Positions 41,782 through 53,413 of a stretch of DNA of 64,000 nucleotides are shown one piece after another. The translations under genes were made by a program, and so were the position numbers. Below the pieces are notes generated by a model that was given only the letters and a program-made list of their open reading frames with translations, did no database searches and was not told the origin of the DNA. The stretch lies in assembly GCF_947259025.1 (NCBI RefSeq), contig NZ_CAMYKO010000005.1, forward strand, positions 558,001-622,000, written 5' to 3'. Source of the stretch: an uncultured Methylophaga sp. (lineage in GTDB: Bacteria; Pseudomonadota; Gammaproteobacteria; Nitrosococcales; Methylophagaceae). How positions within the stretch are numbered: position 1 is the stretch's first letter; every line of letters starts with the position of its first letter.

Positions 41782-42690
41782 ATGAAGATTTTGCTTGTCG
41801 ACGATAATAAGAAAGATCTCAAAACCAGCGCCAGTCTGGTGGAGGAAGTCGGTCACACACCGATTGTTTGTGATAATGCCCATGAAGCACTGACTTTTTT
41901 CGACTCTGAGGCCAGCACACCCTATCTCATTATTACAGATTGGGAAATGCCGGACATGGATGGCAGTGAGCTGTGTCAGCGACTGCGGAACCTGCCATTT
42001 ACTGTGTCGCCTTATATCATTCTGACCAGTGCCGAAGAGTTCAGCGATGCTGAAGTCTGTGCTTTGGAAAATGGCGCCGATGACTTTATTGAAAAGCCCA
42101 TGTCATTACGTTCACTAACAGCAAGAATACGAGTCGCTGAGCGCATACTTTCAACACAGTTAAACCTGAGAAACCTGGCGCTGACAGATGGTCTGACCGG
42201 CTTGCTTAACCGACGTGCAGGCATGACCGCCATCCAAACACAAATCGCCCGTATCGAGCGCCACGAAAATCTGCATGGCTGCGTCATTATGTGTGACATC
42301 GACTATTTCAAACGTATCAATGATAACTACGGCCACACTGCCGGTGATATTGTGCTGCGTGAAGTGGCAAACAGAATGAGTGAGTCACTGCGCCCCTTCG
42401 ATACGATTTGTCGTTACGGCGGCGAGGAGTTTCTGATTTTCTGTGAAGCCGGTGAAAAAGAAATCACCGCGATCCTAGATCGCATTATGGACGTGGTCTC
42501 CAGTGAACCGGTGATGCTGGATAACGGTGACTACCTTCATGTGACCTTAAGCATGGGCTGCCATGTGGATGAGCAATCAGCCCCTTTGACGTCAAAATTA
42601 AAACAGGCCGATGAGTTGCTCTACCAGGCCAAGGGGAATGGCCGCAATCAATACGTCACCGACCTGGGTGCGCTCAGCGCTAACGGTTAA
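41782..42690 (+). CDS. Response regulator with GGDEF diguanylate cyclase output
   Basis: A 302-residue two-domain protein. The REC domain (about 1-120) has KILLVDDNKKD, the phospho-acceptor aspartate in IITDWEMPDMDG, and the lysine in FIEKPMS. The GGDEF domain (about 130-295) has ADGLTGLLNRRAG-like TDGLTGLLNRRAG, VIMCDIDYFKRINDNYGHTAGD and the active site RYGGEEFLIF. An inhibitory RxxD site (RPFD) lies five residues before GGEEF, so product inhibition by cyclic di-GMP is likely. No histidine kinase gene is next to it. Confidence 0.94.
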   Translation: MKILLVDDNKKDLKTSASLVEEVGHTPIVCDNAHEALTFFDSEASTPYLIITDWEMPDMDGSELCQRLRNLPFTVSPYIILTSAEEFSDAEVCALENGADDFIEKPMSLRSLTARIRVAERILSTQLNLRNLALTDGLTGLLNRRAGMTAIQTQIARIERHENLHGCVIMCDIDYFKRINDNYGHTAGDIVLREVANRMSESLRPFDTICRYGGEEFLIFCEAGEKEITAILDRIMDVVSSEPVMLDNGDYLHVTLSMGCHVDEQSAPLTSKLKQADELLYQAKGNGRNQYVTDLGALSANG

Positions 42691-44668
42691 CACCCCAGCT
42701 TTTGTATATTTTCTCCATCACGGTATTCAGTTCCGTTTCGGGCACGGCAGCCAGTTCACCCGGCTCAAGCGGATCAAAATGGAATATGTAGAGTCGCGAG
42801 GCAAACTGCTCGAAGGCCAGAGAGGCTTCCCCAAAGCGTTCGCCGTGACCTGATGTGCTGACCAGTATGTCGTCGCCCCAATGCTGACCGCTGTCATTAT
42901 TGGGGTTATAGAAATAAACCCGCATGGTCTGCTCCTGATCCAGCGCCACGCGTAAGATACTGATCGCATGCCAGCCGATAAAGCGCATAGCGCTGTCGGT
43001 AATGGCAACCCCCGCAGGCTGCGGATGAATCAGCGGCTGATTTCCGTTGTAATAGGGATGATAACTAGCATAAAAGCGTCGCAGGAAGGCATCCAGGTTA
43101 ACCAGCTTGCCTGTGGGCACATCGACATTGATATCAAAACCGCGGCCACACCACCAGCCATGAAACTCCGGATTGACCCAGCGATGAGGGTCGCTCTCAC
43201 GCTCGGCACAGCGCCGACCCATTTCGGCATAGATGCGATCCAGGTGCGGCACTAAAATTAATGAGACCGGATCCAGATCCATCGGCAGTTCCGAAGCGAC
43301 GCCCGATGGCAAAGTTTTCGAGGAAAGTGCCTGTCCTTCAAAATGCATAATGACTTCATCGTCACGCGCTGCCCAGACCAGTAACTGCAACAGATAATCC
43401 GGATCCTGGTAAGCCCACATGGAAATCGCCCGCGCAGACTGACAGGTCGGATTATTACCCTGCCCCACGCCCAGCGGCTGACCCAGTACACACAAGACGC
43501 CTTCCAGTAATCGGATTTCCGGCGCCGGATTGTCACCGAACAAAGTCAGCAAGCGTTGGCGCGCAAAGTCCGATAATGGCAGCGATAACTGCCGCCACAA
43601 AGCCGGGGCCAGTGGTGGTTGATAGAGTATGCTACGCTCAAGCATCATCGCCAGGCCATAAATGGCCTGTGCGCTGGCCGGGTGTACCGCCTTATCGATC
43701 AGCGCGTGAACCAATTCCTGGAAACTGAGCAGGCAGTCACGGCCTGTAGATGATAACCCCAAGGCTTCGCTCAGCAGGTGATCACTGTTTTCAACAAGGT
43801 ATCGCAATAAAACAGCATGATAGGGAGACACCAGACCGGTATCATGCATGGCCCGGGCAAAACCGGTGGCTTCATATTGCAGCGCCGCGGCATCCATTGT
43901 TGCCAGTCTTTCCAGATAGACATCGACGCCGGGATCTTCGCGGCAGCTCTGGGTGGGACCATAAAGGCTGCTAATAAGTCGATCGGCACCCTGCCCGCTG
44001 GTGCCCAGATCAATATCCGGGCTTTGCTGACAAATGGCTATTTGAGTGACCATTTGCTTGATGTTGGCGAGCTGAATCGGTCGCTGCTGCAAAATACGCC
44101 AGATTTCGTCGATCAGTTGCTCGATGATGTGTTCGTAGCCAATACGCTCGGCCAGGTGCTGTAATAAATGCCGGCTAAGCTGACCCAGCTTGCCTTGTCG
44201 GGTTCTCTCGGCTTCATCAGCGGCACTGAACAGCCGCTCCAGATTAATCGCCAGCACATGCGTCAGGTGATGATGCGCCTGTTCGGCGGACACATGCTGA
44301 TGCTTGTAGACACCTTTCGCTACCGCCAGCAATCGCAGATTACTCAGCGCTTCCATCACCACGCTATTGGCATCAGCACTTTTCAGCGCCTGGGCACTGA
44401 GTGAGGGAATCAGGATTTGCGGCTGGGCGTAATCGGTGTTGTTGAACACGCCTGCCTGTTCAATCCGCTGCATATAAGACTCAATCAGCGCACAGCCGCC
44501 CGGCTGTTGCATGATACGGCGGCAGCAATCAAACAAGCGCGAGACCTTGTCCGGCTTGATAAAGTCCCGCGCCTGCTGGAGCAGGTCAATCGCCTGCTCC
44601 AGTTGCTCAATCAAATGCGGACTGGTCTCGGCAACGCTATGGCCGGTGTTGCTGGCGGATTCAATCAA
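42680..44668 (-). CDS. Large uncharacterised protein with a possible papain-like C-terminal domain
   Basis: I do not recognise this 662-residue protein as a named family. It starts with TTG at 44668 behind GAGGAAG, 30 bp after the ATP-grasp gene, so the two form an operon. The first 370 residues are mostly helical with no membrane segment or signal peptide. In the C-terminal part a glutamine (Q403) precedes a cysteine (C409) by six positions in GQGNNPTCQSARAIS. Later come GWHAISIL (H567) and YFYNPNNDSGQHWG (N588). This Q...C...H...N order and the Q-to-C spacing match papain-fold cysteine peptidases. The fold call is inference; an alternative is an inactive or unrelated alpha/beta domain. Its last codons overlap the convergent diguanylate cyclase gene by 11 bp. 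Confidence 0.72.
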   Translation of the reverse strand: MIESASNTGHSVAETSPHLIEQLEQAIDLLQQARDFIKPDKVSRLFDCCRRIMQQPGGCALIESYMQRIEQAGVFNNTDYAQPQILIPSLSAQALKSADANSVVMEALSNLRLLAVAKGVYKHQHVSAEQAHHHLTHVLAINLERLFSAADEAERTRQGKLGQLSRHLLQHLAERIGYEHIIEQLIDEIWRILQQRPIQLANIKQMVTQIAICQQSPDIDLGTSGQGADRLISSLYGPTQSCREDPGVDVYLERLATMDAAALQYEATGFARAMHDTGLVSPYHAVLLRYLVENSDHLLSEALGLSSTGRDCLLSFQELVHALIDKAVHPASAQAIYGLAMMLERSILYQPPLAPALWRQLSLPLSDFARQRLLTLFGDNPAPEIRLLEGVLCVLGQPLGVGQGNNPTCQSARAISMWAYQDPDYLLQLLVWAARDDEVIMHFEGQALSSKTLPSGVASELPMDLDPVSLILVPHLDRIYAEMGRRCAERESDPHRWVNPEFHGWWCGRGFDINVDVPTGKLVNLDAFLRRFYASYHPYYNGNQPLIHPQPAGVAITDSAMRFIGWHAISILRVALDQEQTMRVYFYNPNNDSGQHWGDDILVSTSGHGERFGEASLAFEQFASRLYIFHFDPLEPGELAAVPETELNTVMEKIYKSWGVNR

Positions 44669-44698
44669 ACTACTTCCTCAGTATCTAACGCCGCGCGA

Positions 44699-45940
44699 TC
44701 AGATGTAGAAATCGAGTGATTCCTGGTGTTCCAGTAAATCGCGCATGGTTAATGCATCATCGCCGAAAAAGTATAGCAAACCCCAGTGGGTGCCGAACGC
44801 GGTACGTTTGGTCACTGTGGCCTCAAGCGGCTGATTCAGATCATGGAAGTCGTAATAGGGATGATTCTCGGTTTCTTCCGGAATCTCCAGGCGGCTCACC
44901 ACACGCAGGCGTGGATAGACACCGAAACAACCGGCATGGCCCTTGGCATCGACCACTTCGCGGGGGAAGAAATCGGTGATTTCCTGTTCGGTGGTTTTAG
45001 GGTCAAAGGCCAGAATCATTCCCTGATAGGCATTAAAGCCGTAGGCGCGCTCAAGCAGTTCAAAGACTTTGAAACCGGGCGGCCGGTAGGCGACTTCGCC
45101 AAAGTACATTTCACCATCACTGGTGACGAAATATTCGGGGTGAATGAAGCCGAATTCAATATCGAACGTTTTGATCAGCTTCTCAATTTGCTGCGTGATC
45201 TGGTCACGGTATTTTTCCAGCTCCGGTGAAGCAGGCACAAACACCGAGTAACCCAAGGTGACGTATTCGGAAATGTTGAGAAAGCGGATCTTGCCATTGT
45301 GAATCCAGGCTTCAACAGCAAACTCCCAACCATCCAGATGTGACTCCATCAGCACCGGAAACTCTTCATCGGGGATGGTATCCACCTCATCCGGTGTGCG
45401 GATAACCCGGTGGCCCAGACAACCGGCTTTGTCGAACGCTTTCAGGTGAATCGGATCGTTGGGATCGCCATCAAGCTTGAGCAGCGTCTGGTTAACGCGC
45501 TTCAGAAAACGGATGACGTCGCCCTTGTCATGCGCCTCCTCGAAAATGCCGACCCGGATACCCCCTAATTGTGCGCGGCGTTTCATCAGCGCCTTGTCAC
45601 GCAAAAGCATTGATTGGCCCAGCAAACGCGGATTATCCATCAATACCGAGTTGATAGCGCCGGCCCATTCCACGGTTTCCTCAAACAGGGGAATGGCCAC
45701 ATCCACCCCCTGCTCTTTCAGGGTCTGGGCGATTTCCATGGAACGATCATTGAGGCGCTCAAAATTCCACTTGATGTAGGGGATATCGTGCTGTTTACAG
45801 TAATCCTCGGCCCAGTCAGGGGCGACCACCACATAACGGCGGTCAAAATCCTCGGCCGCCTCGACAGCGTTCAGACTCCAGCCCAACAGCGCGATATAGC
45901 CTTTTTCCGGATTATAAGATGAGGGGGTTTCAGACGACAT
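44699..45940 (-). CDS. ATP-grasp domain protein (carboxylate-amine ligase-like)
   Basis: 413 residues from the ATG at 45940 behind GAGGAG; the track start at 45982 lacks a ribosome site. An N-terminal Rossmann-like domain (GYIALLGWSLNAVEAA) is followed by ATP-grasp parts: MLLRDKALMKRRAQLGGI, LMESHLDGWEFAVEAWIHNG, and GEVAYRPPGFKVFELLE. In the last, the metal-binding E-x-N-x-R pattern of most ATP-grasp enzymes reads E-V-A-Y-R, so the asparagine is lost. The family usually joins a carboxylate to an amine or thiol. It is first in an operon with the unknown 662-residue protein. The product is unknown. Confidence 0.83.
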   Translation of the reverse strand: MSSETPSSYNPEKGYIALLGWSLNAVEAAEDFDRRYVVVAPDWAEDYCKQHDIPYIKWNFERLNDRSMEIAQTLKEQGVDVAIPLFEETVEWAGAINSVLMDNPRLLGQSMLLRDKALMKRRAQLGGIRVGIFEEAHDKGDVIRFLKRVNQTLLKLDGDPNDPIHLKAFDKAGCLGHRVIRTPDEVDTIPDEEFPVLMESHLDGWEFAVEAWIHNGKIRFLNISEYVTLGYSVFVPASPELEKYRDQITQQIEKLIKTFDIEFGFIHPEYFVTSDGEMYFGEVAYRPPGFKVFELLERAYGFNAYQGMILAFDPKTTEQEITDFFPREVVDAKGHAGCFGVYPRLRVVSRLEIPEETENHPYYDFHDLNQPLEATVTKRTAFGTHWGLLYFFGDDALTMRDLLEHQESLDFYI

Positions 45941-46227: not shown

Positions 46228-46629
46228 CTAGTCTTTTTTCTTCTTGGCTTTTTTGGCTTTCTTTTTGTTTTTCTTATCTTTCTTTTTATCTTTGTCTTTC
46301 TTGGCGTCTTTCTTGTTTTTGACCTTTTTCTTGTCTTTATCCTTTTTGGCTTTCTTCTTGGATTTTTTGTCTCCACCCGCGCCGGAGCTGACGGCATCTG
46401 ATTGTGTCGCCTGCTGTTTCAAAGCCTGCATGCCCAGGCGCCGGAAACGCGTAACGATATACTTGACCTGGCCAATACTGAGGCCACTGGCCTCGGCAGC
46501 GGCTGCCTGGGTCATGCCCTGATGAATGGCGAGTAAAGCGGCAGCCCGCTGACTGTCAGGCAAAGCACTGGCAGCCAGTGTTTTACAGGCGGTCACGTCA
46601 CGGGGTTTGAGTAAGCGGGTTGTAGTCAT
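46228..46629 (-). CDS. Helix-turn-helix protein with long lysine-rich tail
   Basis: A 133-residue protein behind AAGGAAT. Residues about 20-75 form a helix-turn-helix domain (GMTQAAAAEASGLSIGQVKYIVTRFRRLG), similar to the N-terminal region of IS630-type transposases and other HTH proteins. From about residue 85 on it is almost only Lys, Asp, Ala and Asn (KKDKDKKKVKNKKDAKKDKD), like histone H1-like or AlgP-type tails. The arrangement suggests a DNA-binding protein with nonspecific tail contacts. It is third in an apparent operon after the radical SAM and DUF2726 genes. The plus-strand ORFs opposite the tail are artefacts of the repeat. Confidence 0.75.
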   Translation of the reverse strand: MTTTRLLKPRDVTACKTLAASALPDSQRAAALLAIHQGMTQAAAAEASGLSIGQVKYIVTRFRRLGMQALKQQATQSDAVSSGAGGDKKSKKKAKKDKDKKKVKNKKDAKKDKDKKKDKKNKKKAKKAKKKKD

Positions 46630-47235: not shown

Positions 47236-48339
47236 TTAGCTATGCATATTGACCCTGAGACGCTTCGCACCCCAGTCACCCGGTAAGGCCTCAAAAATAC
47301 CGGGACAGTGGCTGCCACAGTCGGGACAACAGCCCGATGCATCCAGCCGCCAGTCAGATAACTGATACCAGTCCCGGGCAATTAACAGGGCGCCGCACTG
47401 ATGGCACCAGGTGCTGTCAGCCTTGGGATCGTGGACATTACCAACATAGGCGTAATGTACACCATTTTGTATCGCAATCTGCCGAGCCCGTCGCACTGTG
47501 GCAGACGGTGTAACCGGTTTATCAGTCATTTTCCAGTCAGGGTGGAACACGGTGAAATGCATGGGCACTTCCGGTCCCAGATTTTTCACCACCCACTGCG
47601 TCATCTGATCCAACTCTCGATCTGAATCATTTTCACCCGGGATCAGCAGCGTGGTCAGTTCAAACCAGACGGCGGTCTCATGTTTGAGATAAAGCAGTGT
47701 CTCCAGTACCGGCTGAAGTTGTGAGCCGGTCACTTTTTGGTAAAAGCGCTCGGTGAAAGCCTTCAGATCAATATTAGCGGCATCCATGTAACGATAAAAT
47801 TCCTCACGCGGCTCGGCACAGACATAGCCCGCGGTCACCGCAATGCTACGGATATCTCGTTCCTGACAGGCGCGGGCCACATCAATGGCATATTCATGAA
47901 AAATGACCGGATCATTATAGGTAAAGGCCACACTGCGGCAGCCGGTTTCCAGTGCCTTATCAGCCAGTTGCTCGGGCGTGGCCCGCGACATCAGCGTGTC
48001 CATTTCACGGGACTTGCTGATATCCCAGTTCTGGCAGAATTTACAGGCCAGATTGCAGCCGGCAGTGCCAAAAGACAGTACCGGTGTGCCCGGCAGGAAA
48101 TGATTCAGGGGCTTTTTCTCAACCGGATCGATCACAAAGCCACTGGACCGACCCCAGGTAGTCAGCTTGACTTCATCATCGAGGTTGGCGCGGACAAAAC
48201 ACAAGCCCCTTTGCCCCGCTTTTAATCGACAGAATCGTGGGCACAAATCACATTGCAGCCGGCCGTCAGCCAGGCGATGCCAGTAACGGCTGCTGACCGT
48301 ATCACCGGCATCAGAATGCAGGGAAGTGTCGTCAGTCAT
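47236..48339 (-). CDS. amrS: AmmeMemoRadiSam system radical SAM enzyme
   Basis: 367 residues from the ATG at 48339 behind GGAGGG; the track start at 48426 overlaps the divergent gene. An N-terminal cysteine cluster (CDLCPRFCRLKAGQRGLC) precedes the radical SAM core GTAGCNLACKFCQNWDIS (CxxxCxxC). The C-terminus has a zinc-ribbon-like part, WCHQCGALL and CCPDCGSHCPG. The name comes from its constant pairing with AMMECR1 and Memo family genes, both present here on the divergent side. The reaction is unknown. Confidence 0.93.
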   Translation of the reverse strand: MTDDTSLHSDAGDTVSSRYWHRLADGRLQCDLCPRFCRLKAGQRGLCFVRANLDDEVKLTTWGRSSGFVIDPVEKKPLNHFLPGTPVLSFGTAGCNLACKFCQNWDISKSREMDTLMSRATPEQLADKALETGCRSVAFTYNDPVIFHEYAIDVARACQERDIRSIAVTAGYVCAEPREEFYRYMDAANIDLKAFTERFYQKVTGSQLQPVLETLLYLKHETAVWFELTTLLIPGENDSDRELDQMTQWVVKNLGPEVPMHFTVFHPDWKMTDKPVTPSATVRRARQIAIQNGVHYAYVGNVHDPKADSTWCHQCGALLIARDWYQLSDWRLDASGCCPDCGSHCPGIFEALPGDWGAKRLRVNMHS

Positions 48340-48363
48340 ACTGCCCTCCGCCACTCGGAGATA

Positions 48364-48392
48364 TTGCAAAAACTTGTTGATGAGCAGATACT
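48364..48392 (+). promoter_or_regulatory. Putative promoter of the AmmeMemoRadiSam B-A genes
   Basis: TTGCAA (48364-48369), 17-bp spacer and GATACT (48387-48392), 32 bp upstream of the ATG at 48425, in the 85-bp divergent region. Confidence 0.42.
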
Positions 48393-48424
48393 TGTAATAA
48401 TACGCCGACACGCGGAGGGTTGCC

Positions 48425-49213
48425 ATGGAAATCGTTCGCCCCAGCGCTGTAGCAGGCCTGTTTTACCCGGCTAATGCTGCAAAATTAATCAAGATGATCG
48501 CCAGCAATATGGCTGATTGTGATCTTGATACCACACGCACGCCCAAGGCACTCATCGTGCCCCATGCCGGCTATGTGTATTCCGGCCCGGTGGCGGCGCG
48601 CGCCTATAAATATCTGCAACCGATCAAAGACCGTATCAAACGCGTGGTCCTGGTTGGTCCTTCGCACCGGGTGCCATTTGACGGGCTTGCCGTTTCCACT
48701 GCCGACTGGTTTGAAACACCGATGGGTTTGATTCAGGTTGATCGCCAGGCTGAAAGTGAAATTATGGCGATAGAAGGCGTTCACGCACTGGAACAGGCCC
48801 ACGCCCGGGAACACAGTCTCGAGGTGCAACTCCCCTTCCTGCAGTTTTTACTGAATGATTTTAAGATCGTGCCTATCGTTGCCGGCCATGCCAGTCCGCA
48901 GCTGGTCGCCAAGGTACTGGAGAAGCTCTGGGACGGGCCGGAAACGCTGGTGGTGATCAGTTCGGATCTGAGTCACTTCCTGGATTATGAAAGCGCCTGT
49001 GAAACTGACGCTGAAACCTCGCAGGCGATTATCAGCATGGATAATCATGTGATCGACGGCTTTCACGCCTGTGGCAGTGTCGGCATCAATGGTTTACTGC
49101 TTTTCGCCCGCCACCATGATTTACACGGCGAGATCCTGGCGCTGAAAAATTCGGGCGATACGGCCGGCAAAAAGGACAGTGTGGTGGGCTACGGCGCCTA
49201 CCTGTTTCAATAG
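48425..49213 (+). CDS. amrB: AmmeMemoRadiSam system protein B (Memo family)
   Basis: A 262-residue Memo-family protein, related in fold to non-heme iron dioxygenases. Conserved segments are VAGLFYPANAAKL, LIVPHAGYVYSGPVAARAY (metal-site histidine), LVGPSHRVPFDGLAVS, HSLEVQLPFLQ and VISSDLSHFLDYE. Human MEMO1 binds metal and is linked to redox control; bacterial roles are unknown. It is divergent from the radical SAM gene and 2 bp upstream of the AMMECR1 gene. Confidence 0.94.
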   Translation: MEIVRPSAVAGLFYPANAAKLIKMIASNMADCDLDTTRTPKALIVPHAGYVYSGPVAARAYKYLQPIKDRIKRVVLVGPSHRVPFDGLAVSTADWFETPMGLIQVDRQAESEIMAIEGVHALEQAHAREHSLEVQLPFLQFLLNDFKIVPIVAGHASPQLVAKVLEKLWDGPETLVVISSDLSHFLDYESACETDAETSQAIISMDNHVIDGFHACGSVGINGLLLFARHHDLHGEILALKNSGDTAGKKDSVVGYGAYLFQ

Positions 49214-49215
49214 AT

Positions 49216-49767
49216 ATGTTAGATCGACCAGACCGCTTTCTTTTACGTAAGATTGCCCGTGACGCTATCCAGTACGGGTTGCGTCATCAGGCACCCATGC
49301 CTGTTGACCTGGAGAGCCTGCCAGCCAGCATCCGCCAACAACAGGCCTGCTTTGTCACATTATTCGCCACCGGTACCCTGAGAGGCTGCGTTGGTTCGCT
49401 GGAAGCTTATCGTCCGCTGGCCGAAGATGTGGCCGCCAATGCGTTTGCCGCCGCATTCCGTGATAATCGTTTTTGCCCTATCAGTCGGGATCTGGTGGAT
49501 GAACTGGATATTAATATTTCGCTGCTCACGACGCCACAGCCTATTGAATGTGATTGCGAGCAGTCGCTGTTATCTCAGCTTATACCGGGTAAAGACGGAC
49601 TGATTCTGGAAGCCGGTGAACATCGTGCCACCTTTCTGCCCGCGGTGTGGGACGCTTTACCCAGCCCGGCTCGATTTGTTGCCGAACTGAAACGCAAAGC
49701 GGGCTTGCCTATCGATTACTGGTCAGAGCAGATGCAGTGTTACCGCTATCACACCGAGCATTTCTGA
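49216..49767 (+). CDS. amrA: AmmeMemoRadiSam system protein A (AMMECR1 family)
   Basis: A 183-residue AMMECR1-domain protein. The hallmark LRGCVGSLEAYRPLAEDV is present with the conserved RGC core, followed by AAFRDNRFCPISRDLVDELDINISLL and a C-terminal WDALPSPARFVAELKRKAGLP. The family is conserved from archaea to humans, with no proven activity. It is coupled to the Memo gene. Confidence 0.94.
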   Translation: MLDRPDRFLLRKIARDAIQYGLRHQAPMPVDLESLPASIRQQQACFVTLFATGTLRGCVGSLEAYRPLAEDVAANAFAAAFRDNRFCPISRDLVDELDINISLLTTPQPIECDCEQSLLSQLIPGKDGLILEAGEHRATFLPAVWDALPSPARFVAELKRKAGLPIDYWSEQMQCYRYHTEHF

Positions 49768-50624: not shown

Positions 50625-52085
50625 CTAGCGAGAAGACGGTCTGACATGCCGGCGTAAAATGCGCTGATTCTCGGCTTTGACCTCGCTGTTTTTGCGCCAG
50701 GACCAGAGCAATTCACGGGCACGCCGGGCTTGGGTCTGATAATCGATTAATGGCTGTGGGTAATCCTCACCTAGCTGGATCTGATACATCTGCTGCTCCA
50801 TCGGCGTTAATTGCCAGGGCTGATGAATCAAATCATCAGGCAAATCAGCCAGCTCGGGACACCACTGGCGGATAAACCGTCCCTGCGGATCCTGATCTTC
50901 ACTTTGTTTGATCGGGTTATAAATGCGAATGGTGTTGGTACCGGTCACCCCGGCCTGCATCTGAAACTGTGGATAATGAATGCCGGGCTCGAAATCCAGA
51001 AACAACCGCGCCAGATGCTGCACGCCCAAACGCCAGTCGAGCAGCAAATGATGGCTCAGAAAACTGACCAGCATTGCCCGCATGCGAAAGTTGATATAGC
51101 CGGTATGATGTAAACAGCGCATGCAGGCATCAACCAGCGGGAACCCGGTATGGCCCACTTTCCAGGCAGTCAGATCCGCTTGAACCTTATCATCGTTACG
51201 GTAGGGAAAATCAGCATAGCCACGATTAACCGGACGAAACTCCATCGCGGATTCACTTTCGAACTTCTGAATAAAGTGACAGTGCCAATGCAGACGCGAA
51301 GATAACGCTACCAGAGAACGCCGCCAGCCAGGTTGCTGCCAGTGTTGCAGCAGGTGCTGATACATCTGGCGCAGGCTGATATTGCCCCAGGCAAGATATG
51401 GCGACATACGGCTACAGGCATCGCGGCTCAGTGACGGACTGGAAAGCCGTCGATAATAATCCTGGCCACGCCCCTCATAAAAGCTTTCCAGTGTCTGCCA
51501 GGCGGCGGTTTCGCCGCCATATTGAAAGTCCGCTTGTGGCTGTTGCCAGTTTTCCGGTGGCTGAAAAAGCATCGTGTCAGGCACTGAGACCGTTCTAAGC
51601 TGTGTCCAGTCGGGCTGTTGCAAATCCGCGCGCATCACCCGATTCCAGTGCTTGTCCCAGTCTTCCCGGTGGGCTTTGGCACGCTCTACTGCGCCGTAGG
51701 CAAACTCCTGCCAGTTCACCTGCTGCTGTTCGCACCACTGCTGCACCTGAAGGTCACGGCGAAAGGTATTATCGAGGCCAATTTCCTGATAGCTGAAAAG
51801 CTCACGGATAGTAAACTGCGCTGACAGTTGCTCGAATATCGCCGGCACATCGCCCTCAACAATACAAAGCTGATGCGGGTTCAGCTTTTGCTGCATATCC
51901 TGCAAAGACTGCCAGATAAAGCGCCAGTGACGCAGGCTGTAATGCGGGTCATCCAGCAACATGGGTTCCACCACATACAACAACAGCGTCGGTAGATCCG
52001 AACGGCAGGCAGCGGCCAGCGGCGCATGATCCTGCAATCGCAGATCTCGCTTTAGCCAGACGATGTTAATCGCCTGTCGGCTCAT
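50625..52085 (-). CDS. Photolyase/cryptochrome family flavoprotein
   Basis: A 486-residue protein with the N-terminal antenna domain ([21 protein letters not shown]) and the C-terminal FAD domain ([61 protein letters not shown]). It probably uses blue light to repair pyrimidine dimers, though a signalling cryptochrome cannot be ruled out. Its start overlaps the stop of the DASH-type gene by 4 bp, so the two are made together. Confidence 0.9.
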
Positions 52086-53413
52086 TGAGTGGGTTTGCCG
52101 GGAAGAATGGGCCAGTCTGCGGCATCAACAGAATCCAGTTGCGGCGCGGTGACTTCACCCTGCCAGTCGCGTATAAAGCGTCCTTCCGGGTCAAACTGGC
52201 GGGTCTGTTTGTCGATATTAAAGTGACGACCACCACGCGGATCCATGCCCACACCGGCAATGTACTGCCAGTTTCCCCAGTTTGACGCAACATCATAATC
52301 AATCAGTTGCTGTTCAAAATAGGCTGCGCCAAAACGCCAGTCCAGTTGCAGCTCATTGACCAGGCAACTGGCCACGATCTGGCGGCCGCGGTTGGACATA
52401 TAACCGGTCTGATTAAGCTGATTCATCAAGGCATTGACCAGCGGGTAGGGGGTATTGCCATGGCACCATTTCTGGTAGCGCTCGGGGTAAAAGCAGCACT
52501 GTTTTTTATTTTTAGCAACGCCCTGGGCACTGAACAGTTTATGTCCGAGCTTTCTGGCCACCCATTGAAAATATTCCCGCCAGAGCAGCTCGAAAAAGAT
52601 CCAGTAGGTGGACTCATTGGCGACCTGCTCCTGTTCGAAATCACGCAGGCGTTTAAGCAGGCGCCGCACTGACAGATTGCCATTGGCCAGCCAGGGCGAG
52701 AACTTGGTGGAGTTGCTCCAGCCATCGAGTTCATTGCGCCAGTGTTTGTAGTGCGCGGGACGGTCACTGCTGAAATAGGCTTCTAACTGCGCCAGTGCTG
52801 CCCGCTCGCCGCCCTCGAAAAGGCTCTGTTCAGCATCGCTGATGGCAAAACCCTGAGATTCTTCTGTCAGCGCTTCCACCGGCGCCGACAGCTGCTTGGG
52901 CATCATCAGCGGCGGATCAATATCCAGCGCCTCCACCTGCCTGCGGAAACGGCTGAAACTCTCAGGTAGTGAGGTCAGTGTGAACGGTAGTTGTTCTGGC
53001 CGGAACAAGGTATGTGAGCTGAGCGAGACAAACTCCAGCCTGGGAAAATCGGCTTTCAGGTGCTGCCACTGCCGGTTTTCATAGACCCCGACATGGTCAC
53101 TGCGGTAGAGGGCTTCAACTTTGAAGCGGCGTATCAGATCCGATATCACCGCCACCGGCTCCCCGCTGACCACGATCAGTGACTGTCCGCGGCGGGCCAG
53201 TTGATCGGATAGATCCATCAGACTCTGGTTAAGAAAACGATGGCGGGTATCGCCCAGCGGTCTGGCATTAAGGCCAGTAGGCTTGAACCAGTGACTGTCA
53301 TAGCAGAACAGACAGATCAGACGCTGACAGTGCAGACTGGCTTCCAGCAAGGCCGGGTTGTCATGCACGCGAAGGTCGTTGTTGAACCAGATAAGTCCGG
53401 TCTGTTTCATCAC
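52082..53413 (-). CDS. DASH family cryptochrome
   Basis: A 443-residue flavoprotein. The DASH pattern is clear: [22 protein letters not shown] at the N-terminus and [64 protein letters not shown] at the C-terminus. The SNRGRQ and NWQY-GVG-DPR segments separate DASH proteins from ordinary photolyases. DASH proteins repair dimers mainly in single-stranded DNA and may have other light roles. First gene of a two-gene photoreactivation operon. Confidence 0.94.

Follow-up and report, generated by a model that had tools for sequence, protein, structure and literature searches.

The coupling of an ATP-grasp protein with a peptidase-type partner is known from the RimK/RimB and Rlo systems of Pseudomonas, in which the two are co-transcribed, and the Rlo operon (PA1766/PA1767) encodes a membrane protein with an inactive transglutaminase domain together with a retropepsin (PMC12239564). 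The glutathionylspermidine synthetase/amidase of E. coli (GspSA) likewise couples an ATP-grasp ligase with a papain-fold cysteine amidase that acts on the same amide. A pair of genes of similar logic, referred to here as A and B, is located in a 64,000-nucleotide stretch of DNA (the window) from an uncultured Methylophaga sp. (contig NZ_CAMYKO010000005.1, positions 558,001 to 622,000). The initial annotation had described an ATP-grasp gene followed after 30 bp by a 662-residue protein of no assignable family, and both points hold, given that the layout was confirmed from the window sequence and that B has zero matches in Pfam, NCBIfam, PHROGs, or PADLOC, the last of which gave no match to a known defense family that might indicate an anti-phage role. 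Judging from the sequences and the structural models, the pair appears to comprise an ATP-grasp ligase and a cysteine amidase-type partner.

This pair resembles GspSA, Rim, and Rlo in its logic and fails their defining features. In GspSA, a CHAP amidase and an ATP-grasp enzyme of a different class are fused in a single protein, whereas A and B are two genes, in which no CHAP or GSP_synth-type Pfam match is found. As for Rlo and RimK/RimB, B has no match to the retropepsin-like peptidase or membrane inactive transglutaminase families, and it has retained its Cys, His, and Asn residues. The PA1766/PA1767 genes of P. aeruginosa were considered as homologues and rejected, given that this operon is Rlo. 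The A/B pair is not described in the open-access literature searched, which is no proof of novelty.

On balance, A and B probably constitute an obligate cytosolic module that makes and unmakes an amide, often accompanied by an HDAC-like third enzyme. The obligate nature of the pair is evident from its distribution. A single scan of the species genome collection yielded 549 stretches encoding relatives of B, and in the best 80 of these, which were kept, A adjoins B on the same strand in 78 loci (it was not found beside B at L029 and L047), so that the conserved neighborhood proposed for the two genes is upheld. At the level of whole genomes, A is present in all 23 of the tested genomes with an intact B and missing from all eight Methylophaga genomes that lack B. 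A real two-gene unit is thus supported. In one Marinobacteraceae genome (G807), A is absent and B persists only as broken fragments, i.e., B apparently decays where A is absent; the B remnant lies in pieces at L238 and L240 (G807 contig 1, 434840-435440).

Within Methylophaga, the pair occupies approximately five unrelated sites, and more than half of the genomes searched do not have it, a pattern consistent with horizontal transfer or repeated relocation. Among the genomes sampled, the spread amounts to 13 out of 369 in the class and three out of 289 in a second class of the same phylum, where one additional weak hit was not counted. Carriage on plasmids was considered and rejected, a large Halomonas replicon having given the one hit. 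Across the gammaproteobacterial genomes compared, the conservation of A is close to that of RecA and often exceeds it (e.g., 84-88% vs. 75-82% for RecA), while in more distant genomes A is level with RecA (G439, 74% vs. 74%) or lower (G407, 75% vs. 81%).

The single extra partner that recurs with A and B is an HDAC-like amidohydrolase (PF00850) of one specific subfamily, found in approximately seven backgrounds, and its link with A and B is new here. For example, the gene is in an apparent operon with A and B at L097/L231, L023, L135, and L136 (4-bp overlap with B), while it adjoins B in L131, lies upstream of B in L153, and is next to A in L220. Among 121 Marinobacteraceae genomes, the subfamily is present in 67 of the 85 with B and in none of the 36 without it (Fisher p ~1e-17), counts that take no account of shared ancestry, and it is commoner in genomes with two or more B matches (43/46) than in those with one (24/39). 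It is absent from the Methylophaga genomes tested. These proteins have intact zinc and tyrosine motifs, as do the HDAH and HDAC6-like amidohydrolases, from which they differ as a distinct subfamily that is confined to A/B genomes among those tested. An acidic gatekeeper of the HDAC10 type is not apparent, given that 17 HDAC-like sequences have no Glu in the region presumed to correspond to this position of HDAC10. Two genomes belonging to one genus have a GNAT gene after the HDAC-like gene, and the best PDB match of this GNAT is a spermine/spermidine acetyltransferase.

Gene B probably represents an undescribed, papain-like family. The initial annotation had pointed to Gln403, Cys409, His567, and Asn588, and these residues stand exactly as claimed, in the order and with the Gln-to-Cys spacing (6) of papain-fold peptidases. 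All four are invariant in 104 of 104 aligned homologues and in 101 of 101 sequences of a second set, which includes paralogues at approximately 41-55% identity; across these alignments, such invariance is far beyond chance. The AlphaFold2 model of B, built from 44 sequences (predicted local distance difference test, pLDDT, 85.1; predicted template modeling score, pTM, 0.80), has its elements in the order of papain, with the Cys at the start of a helix, the His on a strand, and the Asn after the next strand, and is of low confidence in the loop 401-408, just before Cys409. A Foldseek search with the whole model found nothing significant, because the helical half dominates, and papain-family proteases recur among its higher-probability PDB matches (probability 0.23-0.51, E of at least 0.85) and occupy ranks 2-4 among the matches from the viral library (probability 0.28-0.69, E of at least 0.07). 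The proposal of a papain-like core thus stands as to topology and the weak matches in two libraries, and falls short as to statistical significance. A profile search of B against the PDB gave no match, and hhalign likewise found nothing against a bacterial C1 peptidase, although this is a weak test that had a single usable template sequence. B shares with the C1 papain-like peptidases the order and spacing of Gln, Cys, His, and Asn and the order of the secondary structure, and differs from them in its large helical N-terminal half and in the lack of detected sequence similarity. Taken from the model, a papain-like cysteine enzyme fold is likely, and not proven.

Gene A, which starts with the ATG at 45940, scores 26.9 bits against Pfam ATP-grasp_4, just below the cut-off of 27. 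Its model is poor (pLDDT 56), and the top Foldseek match is the L-amino acid ligase RizA (E 3.9e-5, probability 1.00), followed by PurK-type enzymes and BL00235; the PDB sequence profiles agree weakly with the likeness to L-amino acid ligases. Residues Glu269 and Glu282 are invariant where aligned and line up with Glu residues of the L-amino acid ligases; they are the likely metal ligands. A has the fold, the metal-binding Glu pattern, and the length of RizA and BL00235, and differs from both in its identity of approximately 16% or less and in an RPPG motif where they have RIGG. We know of no papain-like partner of RizA or BL00235. The coordinates of the two genes and of the proposed functional residues are collected in Table 1; a start equivalent to the TTG of B (L-I/V-E-S) is used by several Methylophaga homologues.

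Table 1. Features of the A/B pair, in positions of the window.
Feature	Position	Strand	Basis or remark
Gene A, putative ATP-grasp ligase, L-amino-acid-ligase-like, 413 aa	44699..45940	-	ATP-grasp_4, RizA match, Glu269/Glu282
Gap separating A from B, 30 bp	44669..44698	.	Sequence
Gene B, undescribed family, 662 aa, TTG start	42680..44668	-	Family searches negative; start kept in Methylophaga
B residues 1-395, predicted all-helical N-terminal half	43484..44668	-	AlphaFold2 model secondary structure
B residues 396-662, predicted alpha/beta C-terminal domain, papain-like topology	42683..43483	-	AlphaFold2 model; low-significance Foldseek papain matches
Gln403 codon, proposed oxyanion hole	43460..43462	-	Invariant
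Cys409 codon, proposed nucleophile	43442..43444	-	Invariant; immediately before helix 410-421
His567 codon, proposed general base	42968..42970	-	Invariant; on strand 563-576
Asn588 codon, proposed third triad residue	42905..42907	-	Invariant; immediately after strand 582-587

In the proposed module, A would use ATP to activate a carboxylate, which would then be coupled to an amine to give an amide, and B would either hydrolyze this amide or transfer its acyl group via a thioester on Cys409. The triad would be completed by His567 and Asn588, and the oxyanion would be stabilized by Gln403. In many genomes, the HDAC-like zinc amidohydrolase may remove an acyl group in the same pathway. The activity of each enzyme, the choice between cleavage and transfer by B, and a substrate shared by the whole module are suggested here on this basis, and our best guess for the substrate is either a small amine or a side chain of the lysine type. 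Both proteins would reside in the cytosol, and inspection by eye reveals neither a signal peptide nor a membrane helix.

A number of points weigh against this amide module. The activities of A and B are predictions from sequences and models, the predicted structure of A is the poor one given above, and the likeness of B to papain is both below significance in Foldseek (E of at least 0.07) and undetected by the sequence profiles. The genome counts take no account of shared ancestry, and the HDAC-like subfamily is absent from the window's own genome, so that A and B can evidently be maintained without it. Several clades of B paralogues have no A nearby, and B may therefore have further substrates as well.

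The alternatives differ mainly in the nature of the substrate. The initial annotation had seen in the pair a recurring theme of peptide tailoring, which would take its clearest form in a graspetide-like cluster for a ribosomally synthesized and post-translationally modified peptide (RiPP), where A would cross-link a precursor peptide and B would remove its leader. Both ATP-grasp ligases and papain-fold leader peptidases are found in RiPP clusters, but among the open reading frames above approximately 80-90 aa no small frame or exporter recurs beside A/B in the 80 loci and the paralogue loci, and this reading is very improbable. The peptide-tailoring theme as a whole is not supported, given that what recurs at these loci is neither a precursor peptide nor an exporter, but the HDAC-like amidohydrolase, a partner that points to small-molecule or side-chain amide chemistry. 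Such chemistry might take place on a protein, in a manner similar to that of RimK/RimB. In this case, A would attach an amino acid, or a group like it, to a protein of the cell, and B, together with the HDAC-like enzyme, would strip lysine side chains or chain ends of acyl groups. The conservation of A at or above the level of RecA would be expected of an enzyme that docks on a conserved macromolecule, acyl-lysine is often the target of HDAC-like enzymes, and RimK/RimB itself couples an ATP-grasp ligase with a peptidase (PMC12239564). Modification of a protein is nevertheless unlikely, as the enzymes that A resembles are ligases of free amino acids, the genes near A/B include none for a conserved protein substrate, and the patchy distribution of the pair is a poor fit for a modification carried by a universal protein.

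The amide module can also be cast more specifically, on the model of GspSA, as a polyamine conjugation cycle, in which A would join a polyamine to an amino acid or a peptide, B would cleave the conjugate, and the HDAC-like enzyme would deacetylate acetylpolyamines. This narrower version is also doubtful, and the link of A/B to polyamines is circumstantial. One clade of B paralogues (Va) lies behind genes for a PotF/PotI-like putrescine transporter in six of 10 loci, and the acetyltransferase-like GNAT mentioned above follows the HDAC-like gene, but each of these links is confined to a single clade, and each may therefore reflect one event. The main A/B operon has no polyamine neighbor, and the HDAC-like proteins are closer to HDAH and HDAC6 than to acetylpolyamine amidohydrolase, with no acidic residue in the presumed gatekeeper region of the HDAC10 type.

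Returning to the amide module in its general form, it is conceivable, though rather less secure than the module itself, that it belongs to an undescribed pathway of mainly marine and halophilic Proteobacteria, in which a RizA-like ligase would be combined with a dedicated HDAC subfamily and with papain-like amidases or acyltransferases of a new family, which has expanded to several copies in Marinobacter. A strongly conserved and repeatedly relocated pair that has no name and is represented by 549 related loci suggests that current annotation overlooks some amide metabolite or modification. Given the obligate pairing and the association with the HDAC-like gene, the substrate can be searched for by comparing the metabolites of deletion strains.

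Up to six B matches occur per Marinobacter genome, some of which are fragments, and one paralogue clade is oriented divergently from a copy of A. Some of the B paralogues that have no A nearby adjoin TRAP transporters. A leucyl aminopeptidase (M17) gene is found beside a second copy of A in two Marinobacter loci (L223, 8666-11247; L224, 8636-10195), and a Peptidase_Mx gene lies beside A in L223 and beside the HDAC-like gene in L214 (5889-6851). As each occurs in one or two loci, the TRAP transporter, the leucine aminopeptidase, and Peptidase_Mx were all rejected as general partners. In one Marinobacter genome (L129, 7122-11143), 27 bp separate the start of a B paralogue from a preceding Memo gene, which is itself oriented divergently to a radical SAM gene. 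A gene with weak similarity to GCS2 (glutamate-cysteine ligase 2) and a gene for an unassigned 351-aa protein follow a B paralogue in L129 (11247-13765) and L207, and lie further away in L179 and L205.

In the window, a trio of the AmmeMemoRadiSam type (adjacent genes for radical SAM, Memo, and AMMECR1 proteins; 47236-49767) is located 1.3 kb from A. The function of this trio is itself poorly understood. Its proximity to A/B in the window, as well as that of Memo before a B copy in L129/L119, was treated as chance, because no other locus shows it, save a distant radical SAM hit in L198. On the other side of the pair, a response-regulator/GGDEF gene (41782-42690, + strand) converges on B, its end overlapping the stop of B; it was rejected as a shared partner, given that the domain is common and the similarity is at the domain level only. 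Finally, the window encodes a 133-aa protein in which a helix-turn-helix is accompanied by a tail strikingly rich in lysine (46228-46629), and two different DNA photolyase/cryptochrome genes that directly adjoin each other with overlapping ends (50625-53413).
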